In this document: piece by piece, positions 4,194 to 40,241 of the stretch
Layout of the letters: every line of letters starts with the position of its first letter
Position numbering within the stretch: the stretch's first letter is position 1
Origin: Salinicola halimionae
Lineage (GTDB): Bacteria > Pseudomonadota > Gammaproteobacteria > Pseudomonadales > Halomonadaceae
Direction of reading: 5' to 3'
DNA: 64,000 bases
Assembly: GCF_003206065.1 (NCBI RefSeq)
Contig: NZ_PZJQ01000005.1
Span: 712,761 to 776,760, forward strand
Translations under genes and position numbers: made by a program
The notes under the pieces: model-generated
What the model was told of the DNA's origin: nothing
Seen by the model: the letters and a program-made list of their open reading frames with translations, nothing else
Databases searched by the model: none

Positions 4194-5150
4194 TTAGCTC
4201 TTTGCCACGCCCTGCGCTTGATCACGCGCGCCGTCCTGCGCTTCCCTGCGGGGCGGCAGCGCCTTGCCTCGACGCTGCCCCACGCTCGACTCCTGCGCCA
4301 GGCGTTGTCCGCCGTGACGCGCCTTGGCTTCCATGGCCGGGATCAGATCGCCTTCGCTGAGGTGACGCCAGAAGCGCTGCGGCATGTGCTGGGTCATCAC
4401 CTTGTGATTGAGCCGGGCCGGATTGAAGGTGCTGACGAAATAGGTGCGCCAGAGTGCGTGATCGTCGTCGACTCTGGTGTGGCTAGCAGAGGTCCGAGCG
4501 GCTGCCGTCCGCGCCTCGCTGGCCCAGGTCGCTGGGCAGGGATCGCGATAATCGAGCACCGAGCCATTCCAGCTCGCGCCACCCTGTGGTGTCGCGATGA
4601 TCCAGCGCGAGCCGCCCATGCGATCGGCGAAGTGCTCCGCGCCCAGGTCGAGCACGTCATGCGCGGGCTCGAACCAGGCGATATAACGCTCTCCCAGCGC
4701 GTCATCACGTCGATGAAATCGCAGAAAGGCATGCATGTGATGCGCTTCACGCTTCACCGCATGCCAGCGTTGATGCAGAACGCGACCGTCCGCGTCGGCG
4801 GCATGCGCCGCCGCGGCATCGCCTCGCGCCAAGCGCCACAGGACCTGATACAGCAGCGGCCAGCGCGGCTGATCGTAATCCTGGGTGCGATAGCGCGCGG
4901 CATTCCGCAGCAGCGTCAACTGGTCGCGACCGATCCGGATCGGTGTCGAAGATGGCTTCCGAGAGGAGGGCGGGTTTTCCAATGCTCTCGGCGACGAGAA
5001 CAGGTCGTCATGACTGTCGTTGCCATCGTGCCAAGTGACGCTGGCCGGCGGAGTGCCGGCCTGAAGCAGCCGGCGAGCCTGCTCGCGCCATTCGTCGAAA
5101 TCGTTGGCCCAGGCAACGCATGGCGCCGAGGATATCGGGGCGCTGCGCAT
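4194..5150 (-). CDS. TIGR03915-type DNA metabolism protein (DUF4130)
   Basis: This 318-residue protein has the hallmarks of the family always paired with a TIGR03916 radical-SAM protein: the motif HAFLRFHRR mid-protein, YFVSTFNPARLN and the tail QHMPQRFWRHL. The extreme C-terminus (after residue ~290) is low-complexity and basic. The family is thought to act in DNA repair or modification because some members are fused to a uracil-DNA glycosylase domain; no such domain is present here. AAGGAG lies eight bases before the ATG. It is second in a two-gene operon, 42 bases after the radical-SAM gene, and so should share its LexA box. Confidence 0.8.
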   Translation of the reverse strand: MRSAPISSAPCVAWANDFDEWREQARRLLQAGTPPASVTWHDGNDSHDDLFSSPRALENPPSSRKPSSTPIRIGRDQLTLLRNAARYRTQDYDQPRWPLLYQVLWRLARGDAAAAHAADADGRVLHQRWHAVKREAHHMHAFLRFHRRDDALGERYIAWFEPAHDVLDLGAEHFADRMGGSRWIIATPQGGASWNGSVLDYRDPCPATWASEARTAAARTSASHTRVDDDHALWRTYFVSTFNPARLNHKVMTQHMPQRFWRHLSEGDLIPAMEAKARHGGQRLAQESSVGQRRGKALPPRREAQDGARDQAQGVAKS

Positions 5151-32230: not shown

Positions 32231-32248
32231 AGGAACTGATTGGTTCCT
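32231..32248. promoter_or_regulatory. TetR operator, MFS gene side
   Basis: AGGAACTGATTGGTTCCT is a near-perfect 18-base palindrome. It lies 18 bases upstream of the MFS start and has a sister site at 32891. Confidence 0.8.
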
Positions 32249-32863: not shown

Positions 32864-32890
32864 CGATGTAGTTTCCTGTTAAGTCGAAAT

Positions 32891-32908
32891 AGGAACCGGT
32901 TGGTTTCT
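32891..32908. promoter_or_regulatory. TetR operator, tetR gene side
   Basis: AGGAACCGGTTGGTTTCT is an 18-base palindrome with two mismatches in the arms, and matches the site at 32231 in 15 of 18 positions. It lies 28 bases before the tetR ATG. Confidence 0.8.
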
Positions 32909-33131
32909 ATGTTAGCGATCGATCACGCTTGGGGCAAGCTCATAGTGTCGTGACCACGAGTAGCCTGGTGGGAGTACTCCTCTACGGGCCTTGGCATGCC
33001 TGATGGGCGTGCAGGCAACGGGTGACCGGCTCCGGAGCCTGAACTGCTATATCGGGGATCTGCTCAGGTGATCAGGGGCTCGGGCGGAAGGTGGAACGGC
33101 ACTGCGAAAATCGAGCAACGGCGTTGACTGC

Positions 33132-33149
33132 CTACCATTCGGAAGGTAG
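33132..33149. promoter_or_regulatory. CTACC/GGTAG operator, site 1
   Basis: CTACCATTCGGAAGGTAG is an imperfect palindrome that matches the site at 35151 in 16 of 18 bases. It also could form a small hairpin followed by CTTTCTT. Location: about 145 bases upstream of the first chorismate mutase gene. Confidence 0.6.
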
Positions 33150-33244
33150 GCTTTCTTGTCAATGAAGGGTGCCTTCACGATTTGATCTTCTGACCCATGA
33201 GGCTTGCATTCCAGGCGGCATCTTGGGAAGCGCTAGTCTTTGCC

Positions 33245-33283
33245 AGAAGCGCCGTTGAAATCTCTGCTAGAAGCGCCGTTGAA
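33245..33283 (+). repeat. Direct repeat just before the chorismate mutase gene
   Basis: The 15-mer AGAAGCGCCGTTGAA occurs at 33245-33259 and 33269-33283, 24 bases apart, ending 11 bases before the start codon. It may be a leader duplication or a regulator site. Confidence 0.6.
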
Positions 33284-33294
33284 GAGGGAGCGTT

Positions 33295-33621
33295 ATGAAA
33301 CAACGCGACGTTGTCGCTCAATTAGAATCGCGTCGAAAGACGATCGATAATATCGATGCAGCTTTAGTTTATATTCTCGCTGAGCGTTTTCGGTGTACCA
33401 ATGAAATCGGTATGTTGAAAGCCGAGCATGGGTTTCCCCCGGTGGATGAAGACAGGGAGAAGTCGCAACATGCTCGCCTGAGAAAACTTGCGGATGACGC
33501 CGAGCTCGATCAGGTTTTTATCGAGAGATTAATGAGGTTGATCATTGACGAGGCCGTGCAACGACATGGACAGATCGCTGCTGACCACTTAGCCAAAAAC
33601 GGTTCGCCCGCGGGCCAATAA
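33295..33621 (+). CDS. Cytosolic AroQ-type chorismate mutase
   Basis: The 108-residue all-helical protein has the AroQ pattern: LESRRKTIDNIDAALVYILAERF, then EIGMLKAEHGFPPVDEDRE and FIERLMRLIIDEAVQRH. It has no signal peptide and no fused prephenate enzyme. It should convert chorismate to prephenate, although isochorismate-pyruvate lyase (PchB) is a close relative and cannot be excluded. GGGAG precedes the ATG. It is followed after 90 bases by a second, exported chorismate mutase. Confidence 0.82.
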   Translation: MKQRDVVAQLESRRKTIDNIDAALVYILAERFRCTNEIGMLKAEHGFPPVDEDREKSQHARLRKLADDAELDQVFIERLMRLIIDEAVQRHGQIAADHLAKNGSPAGQ

Positions 33622-33711
33622 TATCTCAGTCTTCATTCAACGTCTCGAGCACGATGCCGCGCGCCGCGTCGTCTTGGGTGAGTCGTTTCTCACACTTTAC
33701 GGAGGATCATA

Positions 33712-34329
33712 ATGGGCGGTGGAAGGTGGTCTTTCATGTCTGTTTTTCATTTCATGCTACGAGCCATCATACCCGTCATATTGGTGCTTGGAGCTGCTTA
33801 CCAGGCTCGCTCCGCTGAACCTGCTCATGATGCGAAGCCGGTGATGGATCATTTGCTGAGATTGGTTGCTGAGCGTCTTGCCATCGCATCGGATGTCGCA
33901 GAGGCTAAATGGAATTCTGGTGATTCCATCGATGCGCCGGCACGGGAAGCAAAAATTTTAGATCGGGTCGTGGTCGAAGCCACACGAGCGGGTATCGATG
34001 AGTCATTTGCCCTGGAATTTTTCAGGCACCAGTTTGACGCTAGTAAAATCATTCAGCATCGACTCCATGACCGATGGGAACGAATGAAACACCCACCCTT
34101 TGACGCTCCGCCGAGCCTTGCCGAAGATATCCGCCCCAAGCTCGATCATCTGACGCCACAATTGATTGATTCGCTCCGAGATTTCAAACGCATTACCGTC
34201 GATGCGAGTATTAGGCGATATATTGAAAACCGGTCCGAGATCTTGATAAACGACGGAATAGGAGGTACGGCAAGAGGCGTCGCATTGCGTCCTTTGCTAG
34301 AAGCTTCTGTCTTGAATGAATCGTTTTGA
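33712..34329 (+). CDS. Exported AroQ-gamma chorismate mutase
   Basis: The 205-residue protein has a signal peptide (hydrophobic residues ~12-30, cleavage after ARSA). The mature part fits the secreted AroQ-gamma family: LLRLVAERLAIASDVAEAKW, DAPAREAKILDRVV, FALEFFRHQFDASKIIQ, then a helical C-terminal extension. The enzyme acts in the periplasm or outside, where its role is unclear; in some pathogens it has been linked to host interaction. GGAGG precedes the ATG at 33712; MSVFHFML at 33736 is an alternative. A tandem pair of both chorismate mutase types is unusual. Confidence 0.85.
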   Translation: MGGGRWSFMSVFHFMLRAIIPVILVLGAAYQARSAEPAHDAKPVMDHLLRLVAERLAIASDVAEAKWNSGDSIDAPAREAKILDRVVVEATRAGIDESFALEFFRHQFDASKIIQHRLHDRWERMKHPPFDAPPSLAEDIRPKLDHLTPQLIDSLRDFKRITVDASIRRYIENRSEILINDGIGGTARGVALRPLLEASVLNESF

Positions 34330-34496
34330 ATAATTCGGCTTGGATAAATCGTTGTGAATAAATAGAAGTGCAGACTGGTAGCCGGTCGAAAAAGAGCAGG
34401 TCGAAAATGGCTTTCTGTGGAGCCTCTGTTCACGTTTTCTTTTCTATCAACTCTAGCCTGGCTTCACCGGCACGGCGGGCCGATCTTGACAAATAT

Positions 34497-34512
34497 TCTA
34501 CTAGAAGGTAGA
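34497..34512. promoter_or_regulatory. CTACC/GGTAG operator, site 2 (tetR leader)
   Basis: TCTACTAGAAGGTAGA overlaps the ribosome site of the tetR gene at 34514. It carries the half-site GAAGGTAG also seen at 33142-33149 and the CTACTAG string seen at 35244-35250 and 37718-37724. Confidence 0.6.
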
Positions 34513-34513
34513 T

Positions 34514-35110
34514 ATGCCAATCATGACCAATCCCACAAGTACCGCTGACAAAATCCTTCAATGCGCGCGCTCCCTGATCATCGCTGGGGGATACAACGGC
34601 TTCAGCTATGCAGACATCGCTGAAGTCGTAGGCATTCGCAAGGCGAGCATCCACCATCATTTTCCCAGCAAGGTCGATCTGGTTCGGACGCTTCTGGAGC
34701 AATATCGTGAAGAGGCAAAGGCGGGGATCGCCGCACTGGAACGTTATAACCCTGACCCCGCGGATCAACTCCGCGCCTATACGGATTACTGGGCGACGTG
34801 TATCGCTGATCCCACGAGTGCTTTCTGTGTATGCGCCTTGCTCGCGAGCCAGATACCCGTGCTGCCGCCGGAGATCGTGGTCGAGGTCCGTGCGCATTTC
34901 CGCACGTTATCGGCGTGGCTGACCGCTGTCCTGGAGGAGGGCGCGACACAGGAGAGGTTCGTTCTTTCCGGTACCGCTCGATCCGAGGCGGAGGGATTCG
35001 TGGCTGGCGTGCACGGAGCGATGCTGTCGGCTCGGGCCTACGGCGATGACAAGGTGTTCAAGGTCGTCACCGATTCCTTGATCGAGAGGTTAATGGCGGA
35101 TCGGTCATGA
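34514..35110 (+). CDS. TetR/AcrR-family regulator of the 33-38 kb cluster
   Basis: The 198-residue protein has an N-terminal helix-turn-helix (DKILQCARSLIIAGGYNGFS, EVVGIRKASIHHHFPSK) and a C-terminal domain with VCALLASQIPVLPPEIVVEV. The ATG at 34514 has GAAGG at short spacing; an ATG at 34523 is possible. The repeated CTACC/GGTAG motif before this gene and before its neighbours suggests it controls itself, the genes at 35272-37641, the gene at 37729 and perhaps the chorismate mutases. Confidence 0.88.
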   Translation: MPIMTNPTSTADKILQCARSLIIAGGYNGFSYADIAEVVGIRKASIHHHFPSKVDLVRTLLEQYREEAKAGIAALERYNPDPADQLRAYTDYWATCIADPTSAFCVCALLASQIPVLPPEIVVEVRAHFRTLSAWLTAVLEEGATQERFVLSGTARSEAEGFVAGVHGAMLSARAYGDDKVFKVVTDSLIERLMADRS

Positions 35111-35150
35111 ACCGGTCCGGTAAGCAAAAATTGGCTCATCATCCCATTTA

Positions 35151-35168
35151 TCTACCATTCAGTAGGTA
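35151..35168. promoter_or_regulatory. CTACC/GGTAG operator, site 3
   Basis: CTACCATTCAGTAGGTAG is an imperfect palindrome almost identical to the site at 33132. It lies about 105 bases before the periplasmic protein gene. Confidence 0.65.
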
Positions 35169-35239
35169 GACAAACGGTTTGACTGCTGTTAGCCTTGTGT
35201 CGGCAGGCAGATAAATCCGCTCTTGTTAGGCTAAATTAC

Positions 35240-35257
35240 CTATCTACTAGTAGATAG
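35240..35257. promoter_or_regulatory. CTACC/GGTAG operator, site 4 (perfect palindrome)
   Basis: CTATCTACTAGTAGATAG is a perfect 18-base palindrome 14 bases before the start of the gene at 35272. Its half-site GTAGATAG differs by one base from GTAGGTAG of site 3. Confidence 0.8.
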
Positions 35258-35271
35258 CATGGAGAATCGAA

Positions 35272-35883
35272 ATGTTACGTCAATTTGTAGTGGGTTGCTT
35301 CACGGCTGCAGCCATTGGCTCAGCGGCTTTCGCTCAAAGCGCCATGGCTGAGCCAATGAACGTGCGCGGCGATGTGGTCAGTTTCAGCGATCAGACGTTG
35401 AAGGTGGATACACGTGAAGGTCAGACCGTCGACATTGCGCTTGCAGAAGGAGCAATGGTTTCGGGTGTTGCTCGCGCTGCCATTACCGATATCAAGCCCG
35501 GCGATTATGTCGGTATCGCTTCGCTTCCCATGAAGAACGGCGGCAGTGGTGCTCTCGAGGTACTGATATTCCCACCAGCTCTGAAGGGCGCAAGCGAGGG
35601 CAGTTTCGGTTGGGATCTGAAGCCCCAAAGCACCATGACCAACGCCACGGTCGCAGACGCTGTCAAAGGTGTGGATGGCCGCACCGTTACCGTCACTTAT
35701 CACGGAAAAGATAAGAAAATCAGCATCCCTGAAGGAACGCCCGTCGTTACCCTTGCACCAGCCACCAAGGCTGATCTTAAGTCGGGAGCAGTCGTTTTCG
35801 TCCCCGTCGAGAAAAGCACGGATGACAGCTTGACCGCGAAGCAGGTCGTCGTTGGCACCAATGGTGTCATCCCGCCGATGTGA
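35272..35883 (+). CDS. Periplasmic protein of the DUF5666 kind (tentative)
   Basis: The 203-residue protein has a signal peptide (residues 1-26, ending SAMA-E). The mature part is beta-rich with repeats of a small barrel: MNVRGDVVSFSDQTLKVDT, ITDIKPGDYVGIASLP, then a second unit VDGRTVTVTYHGKDKKI and DLKSGAVVFVPVEKS. That layout recalls DUF5666/OB-like modules. It is the first gene of an operon with the cytochrome b and molybdoenzyme genes and may be an accessory or substrate-binding protein for them. GGAGAATCGAA precedes the ATG. Confidence 0.65.
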   Translation: MLRQFVVGCFTAAAIGSAAFAQSAMAEPMNVRGDVVSFSDQTLKVDTREGQTVDIALAEGAMVSGVARAAITDIKPGDYVGIASLPMKNGGSGALEVLIFPPALKGASEGSFGWDLKPQSTMTNATVADAVKGVDGRTVTVTYHGKDKKISIPEGTPVVTLAPATKADLKSGAVVFVPVEKSTDDSLTAKQVVVGTNGVIPPM

Positions 35884-35998
35884 CTGCAGGCCGCCATCGT
35901 CCTGGCTGGACTCAAGATTTTGCCAGGCCGATGGCGCATTCGATCTCGCAAACGTTGCGCTGTTCCGATCGACGCCGCAAACCCACCAGGACCGACTC

Positions 35999-36871
35999 AT
36001 GAACCAGGAGACACCACCGCTCCGATCGACACCACCGCAATCGGCACCGCGGGGGACCACCGTCTTTATCCGACGCCATTCCGTGGTGACGCGCTTATCG
36101 CACTGGCTGAACGTGCTGTGCCTGAGCTTTCTGCTAATGAGCGGTCTTCAGATATTCAACGCCTACCCGCAACTCCACTGGGGTCAATACGGCATGGATT
36201 CCGATCCTGCCTTTCTCACGGTAGGAGCGGGCGAAAGCCATGGGGCGCCGCACGGCTTCGTCAGGATCGGCAGTGTCTCCGTGCCCACCACGGGTGTTCT
36301 GGGCCTGTCGAAGGTTGAGGGCGAGTGGGCACCGCAAGCGTTTCCGACTTGGCTTACGTTCCCGTCCTATCAGGACCTTGCCGCTGGCCGGAACTGGCAT
36401 TTCTTTTTCGCCTGGGTGTTCGTCATCAACGGTCTTATCTACTTGGGATACGGCGTTCTGAGCGGGCATTTTCATCGGGATTTGGCGGTGAAGCGGCATG
36501 AAATCGCACCGCGTCATTTCTGGCGGGAAATCGTCGATCATGCTCGCTTGCGCTTCCCTGCCGGGGAAGATGCCCGGCACTATAACGTGCTTCAGAAGCT
36601 GGCCTATATCGGAGTCTTTGCCGGGCTGCTTCCTCTGATGATCTTGACCGGATTGACTCTGTCCCCAGGCATTGACGCCGCGTTTCCGGTCCTCCTCGAC
36701 CTCTTCGGTGGTCGCCAGTCCGCTCGCTCGCTTCACTTCATCACCGCCTCGCTGCTGGTCGTGTTCGTGATCGTTCACGTCGCCATGGTCATCCTGTCAG
36801 GACCCTGGAACAACCTGCGTTCGATGGTCACGGGTCGCTATGCGATCCGCAAGAAGGAGTCTGATGCATGA
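35999..36871 (+). CDS. Membrane cytochrome b (b561/hydrogenase type)
   Basis: The 290-residue membrane protein has heme-type histidines in RHSVVTRLSHWLNVLCL, NWHFFFAWVFV, and LHFITASLLVVFVIVHVAMV. About four to five transmembrane helices are visible, with a large loop after helix 1 (HWGQYGMDSDP). Proteins of this type move electrons between quinones and a periplasmic oxidoreductase. CAGGA precedes the ATG at 35999; the longer frame overlaps the upstream gene. It overlaps the molybdoenzyme start by four bases. Confidence 0.87.
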   Translation: MNQETPPLRSTPPQSAPRGTTVFIRRHSVVTRLSHWLNVLCLSFLLMSGLQIFNAYPQLHWGQYGMDSDPAFLTVGAGESHGAPHGFVRIGSVSVPTTGVLGLSKVEGEWAPQAFPTWLTFPSYQDLAAGRNWHFFFAWVFVINGLIYLGYGVLSGHFHRDLAVKRHEIAPRHFWREIVDHARLRFPAGEDARHYNVLQKLAYIGVFAGLLPLMILTGLTLSPGIDAAFPVLLDLFGGRQSARSLHFITASLLVVFVIVHVAMVILSGPWNNLRSMVTGRYAIRKKESDA

Positions 36872-37641
36872 CAGGTCTTACACGCCGTCGCTTTCTGATC
36901 GGCAGCACTTTGGGGGTGAGCGCGCTCGCGCTGTCCGGCTGTGACAGGCTGGAACAGAATCCCGAAGTGGGAGGCGTGATTCGCTCCGCAGAGAAGCTGA
37001 CCATGAGAGCCCAGAGACTGCTTCTGGGCCGTGATGCACTCGCTCGCGAATTTGCCGAAACGGACATCTCGCCAGCGTTCCGCGTGAACGGAACCAGCGC
37101 CCCGGACAGCGAGGCGTATGCGCAGCTGGCCGAAGGCAACTTCGCACACTGGCGGTTGAAGATCGACGGGCTTGTCGACCGGCCGCTTGAGCTCTCGCTG
37201 GCAGATCTCAAGAAACTTCCCGCACGCACTCAGATCACTCGTCATGACTGCGTCGAAGGGTGGAGTGCCATTGCCAAATGGACCGGTGTTCCACTCGGGA
37301 GTCTCCTGGCAGCGAGCGGACTCAAGCCTACGGCGCGCTTCGCGGTCTTCCACTGCGCCGACGAGCTCGAAAAGACGCTCGATGGCAGTGGTCAATATTA
37401 TGAAAGCATCGACCTCATTGACGCTTTCCACCCGCAGACGATTCTCGCATACCGAATGAACGACCAGGATCTATCGGTGGGCCACGGCGCACCGCTGCGT
37501 CTTAGAGTCGAACGACAGCTGGGTTACAAGCAGGCCAAGTACATCATGCGCATCGCGATCGTCGACAGTTTCGCCGCCTTGTGGGGTGGCAACGGCGGCT
37601 TTTGGGAAGATCGGGGTTATGAATGGTACGCCGGAATTTGA
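36868..37641 (+). CDS. Exported molybdopterin-dependent oxidoreductase (sulfite-oxidase fold)
   Basis: The 257-residue protein starts with a Tat signal, TRRRFLIGSTLGVSALALSGC; the final Cys could make it a Tat lipoprotein. The oxidoreductase-Mo domain has the Mo-ligand Cys in ITRHDCVEGWSAIAKWTGV (about C128) and VGHGAPLRLRVERQLGYK. This is the YedY/sulfite-oxidase superfamily without a heme domain. Electrons would go to the cytochrome b encoded just upstream (ATGA overlap). The substrate is unknown. Confidence 0.88.
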   Translation: MTGLTRRRFLIGSTLGVSALALSGCDRLEQNPEVGGVIRSAEKLTMRAQRLLLGRDALAREFAETDISPAFRVNGTSAPDSEAYAQLAEGNFAHWRLKIDGLVDRPLELSLADLKKLPARTQITRHDCVEGWSAIAKWTGVPLGSLLAASGLKPTARFAVFHCADELEKTLDGSGQYYESIDLIDAFHPQTILAYRMNDQDLSVGHGAPLRLRVERQLGYKQAKYIMRIAIVDSFAALWGGNGGFWEDRGYEWYAGI

Positions 37642-37713
37642 GCGGTGCAGTCTGCCGATAACCAGTCCCCGTGGCCATGACGATAGGCGGGTGATTTTAT
37701 TTGTTTTTTAAGA

Positions 37714-37731
37714 CTACCTACTAGTCGGATG
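37714..37731. promoter_or_regulatory. CTACC/GGTAG operator, site 5
   Basis: CTACCTACTAGTCGGATG carries the left half-site CTACCTAC and the CTACTAG string of site 4. It overlaps the first possible ATG of the gene at 37729. Confidence 0.55.
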
Positions 37732-38316
37732 TCAATCATGAAGGGTTATGTGGACTTCACCGTTATCGGTCAGGAAGGTTGGCTAAAATCCTATTACTTC
37801 TTCCGTGCGGGGTTTTCGGCCATCTGGGTGGCTACTGCCTTCACCGCGGAGCGCGATGCGCCGATGCTCACGATGATCCTGCTCGTGCTGTATCCGGCCT
37901 GGGACGCGGCGGCCAACTTCATCGATGCGCAGCGCAGCGGCGGATGGGGCAGGAATCGGGTACAGTCCATCAATGTCTTCATCAGTGCTTTCACGGCACT
38001 CTCCGTGGTCGTCGCACTACAGATGAGCGATAACTCGGTGCTCGCCGTGTTCGGTGTCTGGGCGATTCTCTCGGGCCTGCTGCAACTGAGCATCGCCCTC
38101 GGGCGCTGGAAGCGTTGTGAGGCCTCGTGGGCCCTGGTGATGATCCTGAGCGGTCTTCAGTCTGCCTGGGCAGGCGCCTTTTTTCTCTGGCTGGCCCGAC
38201 TGCCAGCGCCACCCTTGATGACGACCGTGGCCTACTATGCGGCGCTGGGCGCCATCTATTTCCTGATCTCGGCAATAGGATTGTTCGTCAGCGAGCTGCG
38301 TCGCTCGGGCTTCTGA
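37729..38316 (+). CDS. DUF308-like integral membrane protein
   Basis: The protein has up to 195 residues and about six hydrophobic helices (from residue ~20). It resembles the HdeD/DUF308 group: YYFFRAGFSAIWVATAF, LYPAWDAAANFIDAQRSGGW and VFGVWAILSGLLQLSIALGRW. An ATG at 37738 is a second choice for the start. The operator over its leader ties it to the TetR-controlled cluster. Its function is unknown. Confidence 0.75.
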   Translation: MSIMKGYVDFTVIGQEGWLKSYYFFRAGFSAIWVATAFTAERDAPMLTMILLVLYPAWDAAANFIDAQRSGGWGRNRVQSINVFISAFTALSVVVALQMSDNSVLAVFGVWAILSGLLQLSIALGRWKRCEASWALVMILSGLQSAWAGAFFLWLARLPAPPLMTTVAYYAALGAIYFLISAIGLFVSELRRSGF

Positions 38317-38322
38317 TCGATC

Positions 38323-39279
38323 TCAATGCGACGAGACGTAATCCGATTTGGCGAAGGCCGGCGGTATCGCAAAGTTCTCCCGCATGCGCTTTGTTTCAGC
38401 GGCCGGCGTCAACCCGAAAAGCCGTTTGAATTCCCGATTGAACTGCGAAGGGCTCGCATAACCCACGGCATGGCAGGCGGTCTCGGCGGTCATTCCCTGA
38501 CGCACCATCAGCAAGCGCGCCTGATGCAGCCGCGTGGATTTCACGTACTGCATCGGCGAGGTGTGGGTAATGGTCTTGAAGTGGTTGTGGAACGTGGGAA
38601 CGCTCATGCCGGCTTCACCGGCGAGTTGCGCCAGATCGAGCGGCTGGGCGTAAGTCGCGTGAATACAGCGTAGCGCCTTGCCGATCTTTCCGAACTGCCC
38701 GCGCATGGCCAGCGCCGCTCGCATCGCATCGCCCTGTGCTCCGGTGAGCACGCGAAAATAGAGCTCCCTAACCAGCGCCGGGCCGAGAATCGTCGCCTCG
38801 AGCGGCTGGTTCATCGCTTCGAGAAAGCGCACCAGAGATGCCCGTAACGCCGGGTCCATGGGGCTGGACATCAAGCTCTGCGGTGCACTTGGCCGTGCTG
38901 TTACAGCATCGCGCTCGATCTCAATCATCAGTTCGGCGGCGAGCTGAAAGTCCAGGTGCATGTAGATGGCTAGCAGCGGGCGCTCCGGTGTCGCCTCGGT
39001 TTCCATCGTGAAGGGCACCGGCACCGAGACTGCCAGGTAGTGCTGCTCGTCGTACAGATACACCTGATTACCGAAAAACCCCCGTTTTCGCCCCTGACAT
39101 ACGAGTACGATGCCTGGATCGTACAGAACCGGAGTACGCGATAAGGGGCGATCTGAGCGCAGGATGCGCACGTCAGGCAGCGCGGTCAGGTTATAGCCCT
39201 CGTCCGGCGCCAGCGCCCGAAGCAATGCCACCATATGGTGCGGTTCAGCCGTCGGTGAAGTGACAATGGTCTTGTTCAT
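38323..39279 (-). CDS. AraC-family regulator with AraC_N domain
   Basis: The 318-residue regulator has an N-terminal AraC_N-type cupin (LYDPGIVLVCQGRKRGFFGN, YLAVSVPVPFTMETEATPERP). The C-terminal double helix-turn-helix includes DLAQLAGEAGMSVPTFHNHF and ETACHAVGYASPSQFNREF. This subfamily (YqhC-like) usually activates a neighbouring oxidoreductase gene in response to reactive carbonyls or similar; here the divergent SDR at 39393 is the likely target. Confidence 0.92.
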   Translation of the reverse strand: MNKTIVTSPTAEPHHMVALLRALAPDEGYNLTALPDVRILRSDRPLSRTPVLYDPGIVLVCQGRKRGFFGNQVYLYDEQHYLAVSVPVPFTMETEATPERPLLAIYMHLDFQLAAELMIEIERDAVTARPSAPQSLMSSPMDPALRASLVRFLEAMNQPLEATILGPALVRELYFRVLTGAQGDAMRAALAMRGQFGKIGKALRCIHATYAQPLDLAQLAGEAGMSVPTFHNHFKTITHTSPMQYVKSTRLHQARLLMVRQGMTAETACHAVGYASPSQFNREFKRLFGLTPAAETKRMRENFAIPPAFAKSDYVSSH

Positions 39280-39392
39280 GCCGTATCGCGTGAGATGATA
39301 AGAATAGGCAATAAAACGAGAACAATAAGCCTGAAAGGAAGGAAATAAAAGGCGTAATGTGCAGCTCTCACTGATTCATTGGAGCTATTGCC

Positions 39393-40241
39393 ATGTCGTC
39401 CAGCAAATCGTCGTCCAACAAACTCATTCTCATCACCGGCGTCAGCAGCGGCTTTGGCCGGGCGCTGGCTCAGGAAGCGCTGGCTAACGGTCATCGCGTC
39501 GTCGGCACGGTCCGCAACGAACACGCCAGGCAAGCGTTCGAGCAGCTCGACCCAGCGAACACGGTGGGCCGAGTGCTTGACGTGACCGACTTCGATGCCA
39601 TCGACGGTGTCGTGGCCGACATCGAGGCGAGCGTCGGGCCGATCGACGTTCTCGTCAACAATGCCGGCTACGGCCATGAAGGGATCATGGAAGAGTCCAC
39701 GCTGGCCGAGATGCGTCGCCAGTTCGATGTGAACGTATTCGGGGCGGTTGCCGTGACGAAGGCAGTGTTGCCCTACATGCGTGTTCGCCGAAGCGGACAT
39801 ATCCTCAACATCACCTCGATGGGCGGCTTCATCACCATGCCTGGGATTGCCTATTACTGCGGCAGCAAGTTTGCGCTGGAAGGGATTTCCGAGGTGCTCG
39901 GCAAGGAAGTGAAGCCGTTCAATATCCACGTCACCGCCGTGGCCCCCGGCTCGTTTCGCACCGACTGGGCCGGCCGTTCGATGTCCCGTACGCCGCGCTC
40001 GATTCCCGACTATGACGCGCTGTTCGATCCGATCCGGCGTGCCCGCGAGGAGAAGAGCGGCCAGCAACTCGGCGATCCGGCAAAGGCTGCCCGCGCGATG
40101 CTGGCAGTGATCGACAGCGAAATGCCGCCGGCACATCTGCTACTGGGCAGCGACGCGCTTGGACTGGTGCGTGAAAAACTGTCAGCGATGAGCGACGAGA
40201 TCCAGGCATGGGAAACGCTCACGCGTTCGACCGATGGCTGA
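39393..40241 (+). CDS. Short-chain dehydrogenase/reductase
   Basis: The 282-residue SDR has ITGVSSGFGRALA (residues 14-26), NNAGYGHEG, NITSMGG and YYCGSK with the Tyr/Lys pair, then VAPGSFRTDWAG. It is similar in kind to the SDR at 26624. GGAG lies before the ATG. It is divergent from the AraC regulator across a 113-base AT-rich gap that should hold both promoters. Confidence 0.88.
   Translation: MSSSKSSSNKLILITGVSSGFGRALAQEALANGHRVVGTVRNEHARQAFEQLDPANTVGRVLDVTDFDAIDGVVADIEASVGPIDVLVNNAGYGHEGIMEESTLAEMRRQFDVNVFGAVAVTKAVLPYMRVRRSGHILNITSMGGFITMPGIAYYCGSKFALEGISEVLGKEVKPFNIHVTAVAPGSFRTDWAGRSMSRTPRSIPDYDALFDPIRRAREEKSGQQLGDPAKAARAMLAVIDSEMPPAHLLLGSDALGLVREKLSAMSDEIQAWETLTRSTDG

Follow-up and report, generated by a model that had tools for sequence, protein, structure and literature searches.

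In a stretch of 64,000 nucleotides from Salinicola halimionae (contig NZ_PZJQ01000005.1, positions 712,761 to 776,760 of the forward strand; hereafter the window), a gene for a TetR-family regulator lies among genes that are preceded by related palindromes. The comparisons presented here make it very likely that this regulator and five predicted operators form a regulon with autorepression and three target units. A first-pass annotation of the window had proposed a local regulon of this composition, joining two chorismate mutases, an exported protein with a cytochrome b and a sulfite-oxidase-like enzyme, a membrane protein and the autoregulated TetR itself. Comparison with other genomes supports the proposal: the operators precede the same genes elsewhere, the components are present or absent together within the genus, and in Pseudomonas the chorismate mutase gene carries the operator only in genomes that have the TetR. 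Our best reading is that an autorepressing TetR would control a local accessory envelope module consisting of a pair of AroQ chorismate mutases, a set of an exported protein, a cytochrome b561 and an MsrP-like enzyme, and a six-helix membrane protein.

Results

All five palindromes named in the first-pass annotation are present in the sequence, each upstream of a gene or an operon. Three of their coordinates hold (33132, 35240 and 37714), and the other two have to be moved into register, from 34497 to 34494-34511 and from 35151 to 35152-35169. The predicted operators, with their scores under the position weight matrix (PWM) described below, are O1 (CTACCATTCGGAAGGTAG, 33132-33149, 20.4 bits), in the promoter spacer before the chorismate mutase pair; O2 (TATTCTACTAGAAGGTAG, 34494-34511, 18.6 bits), within the tetR promoter at a position conserved in relatives; O3 (CTACCATTCAGTAGGTAG, 35152-35169, 23.3 bits) and O4 (CTATCTACTAGTAGATAG, 35240-35257, 24.0 bits), the distal and the proximal of two sites before the exported-protein operon; and O5 (CTACCTACTAGTCGGATG, 37714-37731, 19.9 bits), which runs into the ATG listed first for the gene that follows. 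As first described, the sites at 33132 and 35152 share 16 of 18 bases and O4 is a perfect palindrome, which a pattern search reads identically on the two strands.

The PWM is symmetric and was built from the best operator-like 18-mer upstream of each relative's tetR gene, Salinicola being excluded; sites from 72 of 78 relatives were used, and the other six had none. The five highest-scoring sites in the window (18.6-24.0 bits) are exactly the five palindromes above. The next in rank, at 33128 (9.3 bits), overlaps one of them, the best separate site scores 4.4 bits, and the same scan found no site of at least 14 bits in 4 Mb of simulated order-1 Markov sequence. The PWM scan covered the window, and specificity across the whole genome was judged by three patterns in the ambiguity code of the International Union of Pure and Applied Chemistry. 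In the 3.99 Mb genome, the exact pattern CTACC-N8-GGTAG occurs at 4 places, 2 of them in the window (14 for the reversed control), and CTAYCWWYYRRWWGRTAG with up to two mismatches occurs at 9 places (control 16), all 3 mismatch-free ones being in the window. A third pattern, CTACTAGWMGGWWG, was designed to cover the two weaker sites; with up to one mismatch it gave six strand hits (control 28 strand hits), five of which fall on 34494, 35240 and 37714 and one elsewhere. The genome-wide search recommended in the first-pass annotation, carried out with these three patterns, did not refute the proposal; nearly all good matches in the genome fall in the window. The bare 10-base pattern with two mismatches gave 29 hits in the window against 12.5 expected, a number reached by no shuffle; because this pattern is less specific, the inner 8 bases must hold much of the signal.

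The regulator is encoded at 34514-35110 on the forward strand and has an N-terminal TetR helix-turn-helix domain (Pfam TetR_N, PF00440, 43 bits; cut-off 24), and its TetR_C_13 domain barely reaches the cut-off (27.1 vs. 27). The first listed ATG, at 34514, overlaps the -10 element, and the ATG at 34523 is the better start; the corresponding Met4 is conserved in 80 of 84 aligned TetR rows. The promoter, read from the sequence and with a layout shared by relatives, occupies 34486-34514 on the forward strand, with TTGACA at 34486-34491 as the -35 element and TAGATA at 34509-34514 as the -10 element. The promoters of 80 tetR genes were surveyed for the best match, with the spacer free to vary between 16 and 18 nucleotides. 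The spacer is 17 nucleotides long in 70 of them, TTGACA is the commonest -35 element (38), the ATG lies 5-8 nucleotides downstream of the -10 element in 63, and a Shine-Dalgarno-like word is present in only 5. The tetR transcript therefore probably has no leader, with the operator occupying the promoter spacer between the -35 and -10 elements instead of lying over the ribosome site of tetR as the first-pass annotation had it. The operator, with the approximate consensus CTACCTACTAGWAGGTAG, is similarly placed in the tetR promoter of 72 of 78 non-Salinicola relatives, including nine Bacillota and six mycobacterial loci, and in 67 of these 72 the distance to Met4 downstream is 8-10 nucleotides. 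The palindrome is accordingly found, by comparison, both in the regulator's own promoter and in those of its targets, as is expected of an autoregulated TetR protein.

The relatives' loci are the best 80 of 565 confirmed TetR matches, gathered by peptide patterns that contain the cysteines discussed below. Within these 80 the identity is 59-91%, the nearest Salinicola providing the upper value, and the subfamily extends across Pseudomonadota, Bacillota and Actinomycetota. Salinicola, Phytohalomonas, Stutzerimonas, Pseudomonas, many Rhizobiales and others are represented, together with the nine Bacillota loci (Paenibacillus, Neobacillus and Cohnella) and the six mycobacterial loci. Among 398 sampled genomes of the organism's own phylum, 24 have a match with E <= 1e-25, its own genome and that of one genus mate being counted. 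A close relative of known structure is PDB 2g7s, a structural-genomics TetR that we take to be of Agrobacterium origin, which matches residues 4-194 (276 bits, E 1.4e-81) and has all three cysteines. We found no functional paper on 2g7s or Atu0279 in the literature searched, most subscription papers being outside its reach.

Operators also precede the counterparts of the target genes in other genomes. In 83 loci (the 80 relatives and three further loci, L113-L115; the window is not counted), an operator was defined as a site of at least 14 bits within -250 to +30 of a gene. It was present at 12 of 13 exported-protein genes, 29 of 41 genes for HdeD-like membrane proteins and 30 of 35 genes for a second small hydrophobic membrane protein. 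All six genes for the cytosolic-type chorismate mutase (CM1) have it, in a sample that is biased because L113-L115 were picked for holding an operator. The second chorismate mutase gene (CMp) has its own operator in one of five cases and follows CM1 in the remaining four, and the cytochrome and molybdoenzyme genes have none of their own (0 of 10 each). The value for tetR itself (73 of 81) mostly reflects the training data and carries no independent weight. Flanking genes served as controls: AraC 0 of 10, MFS 0 of 8, a second TetR (TetR2) 0 of 3 and SDR 1 of 18. With one operator in 39 genes, these neighbours were rejected as members of the regulon. The two kinds of membrane protein are nearly mutually exclusive, being found in 41 and 35 loci with one locus having both and 8 having neither. 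A 'DUF2306-like' label considered for the second, alternative protein was dropped, as Pfam gave no support for the one member tested. In the whole genomes of 20 relatives, the pattern CTACCWWYYRRWWGGTAG with up to one mismatch gave 33 sites and its reversed control 6; two genomes had none. The paired operators O3 and O4 are 88 bp apart in the window and 79-94 bp apart in their counterparts (L005, L006, L007, L008 and L018). This kept spacing before the exported-protein gene might allow looping.

The distribution of the components across genomes provides a further test. TetR, operator, CM1 and the HdeD-like gene are confined to the same three among 18 genomes of the genus, S. halimionae included; the remaining 15 have none of the four (Fisher p 0.0012 for a single pair of these co-occurrences). 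We also examined 298 Pseudomonas genomes, five of which had already been reached through the search for TetR relatives, so that the counts do not estimate the frequency of TetR in that genus. The strict operator pattern occurs in five of them, all with a TetR homologue, and the reversed control in none. A TetR of at least 65% identity is present in 7, homologues of about 50% identity in 4 more, and CM1 in 10. CM1 is found in 4 of the 7 genomes with the closer TetR vs. 6 of the 291 others (Fisher p 2e-5), and in 4 of 11 vs. 6 of 287 when the more distant homologues are added (p 2e-4). Moreover, all five CM1 genes of the four TetR-bearing genomes have the operator vs. none of the six in TetR-less genomes, where the best score is 11.7 bits, about 700 nucleotides away from the gene. 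At the level of sequence, this contrast is the strongest single evidence tying the TetR to the motif and to the chorismate mutases.

The predicted targets are all encoded on the forward strand. CM1 (33295-33621, 108 amino acids) is a cytosolic-type AroQ chorismate mutase matched by Pfam CM_2 and by the curated equivalog models PRK09239 (126.7; cut-off 120) and TIGR01795 (112.1; cut-off 107.55). Its promoter, read by eye as TTGACT-N17-TAGGCT at 33124-33152, has O1 in the spacer. A leader-peptide attenuator before CM1 was considered and set aside, the Salinicola and Pseudomonas leaders having no ATG-started open reading frame of 4-30 codons in common. CM1 is followed by CMp (33712-34329, 205 amino acids), a gamma-class AroQ enzyme that lies above the cut-off of TIGR01806 (83.7; 74.15) and below that of PRK09269 (117.4; 158) and has a signal-like N-terminus by eye. 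The second unit begins with an exported beta-rich protein (35272-35883, 203 amino acids), with a signal peptide by eye and mostly strands in the predicted model (predicted local distance difference test, pLDDT, 74.8), for which no Pfam or NCBIfam family scores above its cut-off. It is followed by the genes of a cytochrome b561-type membrane subunit (35999-36871; Pfam Ni_hydr_CYTB, 89.8 bits) and an MsrP/YedY-like molybdopterin oxidoreductase (36868-37641; Pfam Oxidored_molyb, 125.1), the latter with a twin-arginine and lipobox-like N-terminus by eye. MsrP is the best NCBIfam match of this molybdoenzyme, although the score misses the cut-off (94.4 vs. 207); SorA (67.8; cut-off 600), SorT (51.9; 570) and SoxC (61.7; 420) are likewise below theirs. 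Its best solved relative is 1xdq, named a bacterial sulfite oxidase, which we take to be YedY. The third target is a six-helix HdeD/DUF308-like membrane protein (37729-38316), with six long helices in its AlphaFold model (pLDDT 87.8). The DUF308-like label of the first-pass annotation needs qualifying, in that the score of 17.6 bits lies under the Pfam cut-off of 25; a relative in locus L043 scores 25.9. The models of this protein and of the exported protein had no match in the PDB at E <= 0.001 in a fold search, and their sequence profiles gave a single match, with E 0.22, among solved structures.

Some other loci hold further genes beside an operator. In Pseudomonas locus L115, a FlgD-domain protein (4228-4887) lies between tetR and the HdeD-like gene and is preceded by an operator. 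Two proteins that are 31% alike and have no assigned family (L007, 3163-3831; L009, 5578-6177) are each encoded downstream of one. A small protein is encoded at or just after an operator in Pseudomonas loci L011 (7051-7644) and L114 (5081-5635), with relatives near TetR in L115 and L120, that of L115 being DUF6030-like below the cut-off. In L116 (4296-5570), a site of the form CTACCTATCGGAAGGTAG accompanies a TetR homologue of 34% identity, and the adjoining divergent gene is glutathione-S-transferase-like, as named by eye; the operator type thus seems to be wider than this TetR subfamily. The remote operator-like sites of L116 and L119 both adjoin other TetR genes (29-34% identity). Those of L117 and L118 have no cluster-like gene beside them, look like chance matches and were discarded.

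Discussion

According to the model that we favour, a dimer of the TetR protein (34514-35110) would bind the five palindromes and repress its own promoter and three putative transcription units, at 33295-34329, 35272-37641 and 37729-38316. Because the operator fills the space between the -35 and -10 elements at the tetR and chorismate mutase promoters, the bound dimer would block RNA polymerase there. An inducer, most likely an oxidant or electrophile that reacts with the thiols of C96, C105 and C107, would release the regulator, after which proteins for periplasmic repair or reduction, with the molybdoenzyme fed by the cytochrome b, and for membrane functions would be made.

The three cysteines are conserved in 81, 81 and 80 of 81 rows, respectively, in a set gathered with patterns containing these very residues. 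In a pattern-free check set of 29 homologues of at least 45% identity (of 31 rows, the organism's own genome and G004 being excluded), C96 and C105 are each present in 29 and C107 in 26. In the same set, an operator of at least 14 bits lies within 200 nucleotides upstream of tetR in 25 of 29 and somewhere in the locus in all 29, and in 23 of 29 one or other of the two membrane proteins is encoded no more than about 1.5 kb away. Three remoter homologues (30-36%) retain C105 and C107, without C96. C105 aligns with Cys106 of NemR, a TetR-family sensor of electrophiles and reactive chlorine in Escherichia coli, and C96, like NemR Cys98, lies a few residues before it, in a column that is not aligned with Cys98. 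NemR differs from the window's TetR in its targets and shares 21% identity with it; no gene resembling its targets nemA and gloA was found among the cluster proteins, to which the scan was limited. A peroxiredoxin of the AhpC/TSA type (one member checked in Pfam) adjoins TetR in eight of nine Bacillota loci, and its gene has no operator itself. Like the window's pair, the periplasmic methionine sulfoxide reductase MsrPQ (YedYZ) consists of a molybdopterin catalytic subunit and a membrane cytochrome encoded by an adjoining gene; the window's enzyme, in contrast, misses the MsrP cut-off, and its partner is of the b561 type with no MsrQ model among its matches. The hypochlorite regulator RclR, which is of the AraC type, offers a likeness of design only. 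In its rclABC response, a cysteine regulator drives a periplasmic protein and a membrane protein whose role is unclear (PMC7464077). The same source assigns roles in sensing hypochlorite (reactive chlorine) to Cys106 and Lys175 of NemR, and PMC9302797 reports that reactive chlorine species induce the expression of MsrPQ. Because of the near-invariant cysteines, one of them matching NemR Cys106, the peroxiredoxin of Bacillota, the nearness of the molybdoenzyme to MsrP and the chlorine induction of MsrPQ, a thiol-reactive oxidant or electrophile is our leading guess; the guess is a tentative one and concerns the signal alone.

The same operators and regulon could instead belong to a classical ligand-binding TetR whose inducer is aromatic or xenobiotic and perhaps connected with chorismate or prephenate, with the cysteines being structural, an explanation that we consider plausible if somewhat doubtful. 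It would account for the recurrence of chorismate mutases as targets, for the MFS exporter gene that several genomes have within or next to these loci and for the TetR_C_13 score just at its cut-off. However, the MFS gene is without an operator (0 of 8), no chorismate mutase was found within the Bacillota and mycobacterial loci examined, and those loci pair TetR, though not in every case, with a small membrane protein and, in the eight Bacillota loci noted above, with the peroxiredoxin. Activation in place of repression at some promoters appears improbable. O3, some 100 bp upstream of the exported-protein gene and paired with O4 at 79-94 bp in six genomes, could suit looping or activation as well, but the operators of tetR and CM1 occupy the promoter spacer or the -10 region, a position typical of repressors. 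Least probable by far is that the palindromes match by chance, or that they are RNA hairpins or terminators unrelated to TetR. The segment 33130-33151 does score as a terminator-like hairpin, yet 7 such hairpins were found in the region vs. 5.4 expected, and we rejected the terminator reading; the PWM and genome-wide specificity, the co-occurrence with TetR and the conservation across phyla likewise argue against chance.

Several observations weigh against the model of an oxidant-responsive, autorepressing TetR. NemR Lys175, the partner of Cys106, aligns with Arg174 in the window's TetR, so that, to judge from the alignment, the sulfenamide switch of NemR is not kept in that form. Moreover, C105 lies within a motif common to other TetR proteins, including TetR2 of the window, and is not specific evidence, and it is not obvious what chorismate mutases would contribute to oxidant defence. 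The operator of tetR itself (34494) is the lowest-scoring of the five in the window. The HdeD-like gene is without an operator in 12 of 41 cases, among them those of the two nearest Salinicola relatives, L005 and L006 (best scores -9.0 and -16.4 bits), and L007 of Phytohalomonas (4.2 bits); this predicted target therefore varies even in close kin. Six Pseudomonas genomes carry CM1 without TetR, and CM1 is absent from three of the seven genomes that have the closer TetR, which makes CM1 an optional member of the putative regulon. The six TetR-less genomes are in part nearly alike, several sharing their best-scoring sites, so that the 0 of 6 given above amounts to fewer than six independent cases.

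The surroundings of the cluster have features of their own. A second palindrome, AGGAACTGATTGGTTCCT at 32231-32248 and ATAGGAACCGGTTGGTTTCT at 32889-32908, lies before the MFS gene and the neighbouring TetR2 gene and is perhaps the TetR2 operator. A copy of the form GGAACCGATTGGTTCC precedes MFS in L005 and L006, whereas L009, L037, L040 and L113 gave no match to the pattern. Relatives of the MFS gene in the segment 30756-32863 of the window (68-69% identity) adjoin CM1 loci in two Pseudomonas (L040 and L113), the second of which also has a TetR2 relative (66%). The AraC_N regulator and SDR gene at 38323-40241 recur near TetR in L007, L008, L031, L038, L045, L077 and L081. The GC content is 0.53-0.55 at 33000-35999 vs. 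0.58-0.63 at 36-44 kb, and is low at 28-31 kb as well (0.50-0.55); the low GC is a weak hint of acquired DNA.

The predicted regulon is of a known general kind, and its mix of genes appears to be without a description in the literature searched: within the reach noted above for 2g7s, we found no account of a TetR, a chorismate mutase and a cytochrome b561 joined by an operator, and no functional study of this TetR group. The chorismate mutases, one with a signal-like N-terminus, are the least explained members. On a wider view, which as a whole we regard as rather unlikely, thiol-switch TetR repressors of several phyla (C96-x8-C105-x-C107, operator CTACCTACTAGWAGGTAG) would run an envelope module for redox repair that is accessory, may be mobile and has one of the two small membrane proteins as its core. 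In several Gammaproteobacteria this module would have recruited a cytosolic and an exported chorismate mutase, by which aromatic metabolism would be tied to the defence against oxidants.

Its shortness, specificity and conservation across three phyla make the operator a handle on this TetR group and an aid in predicting its regulon in other genomes. The membrane proteins, which are unnamed, and the MsrP-like molybdoenzyme gain a common predicted control. The recurrent placement of chorismate mutases under what may be a stress-type repressor is unexpected.

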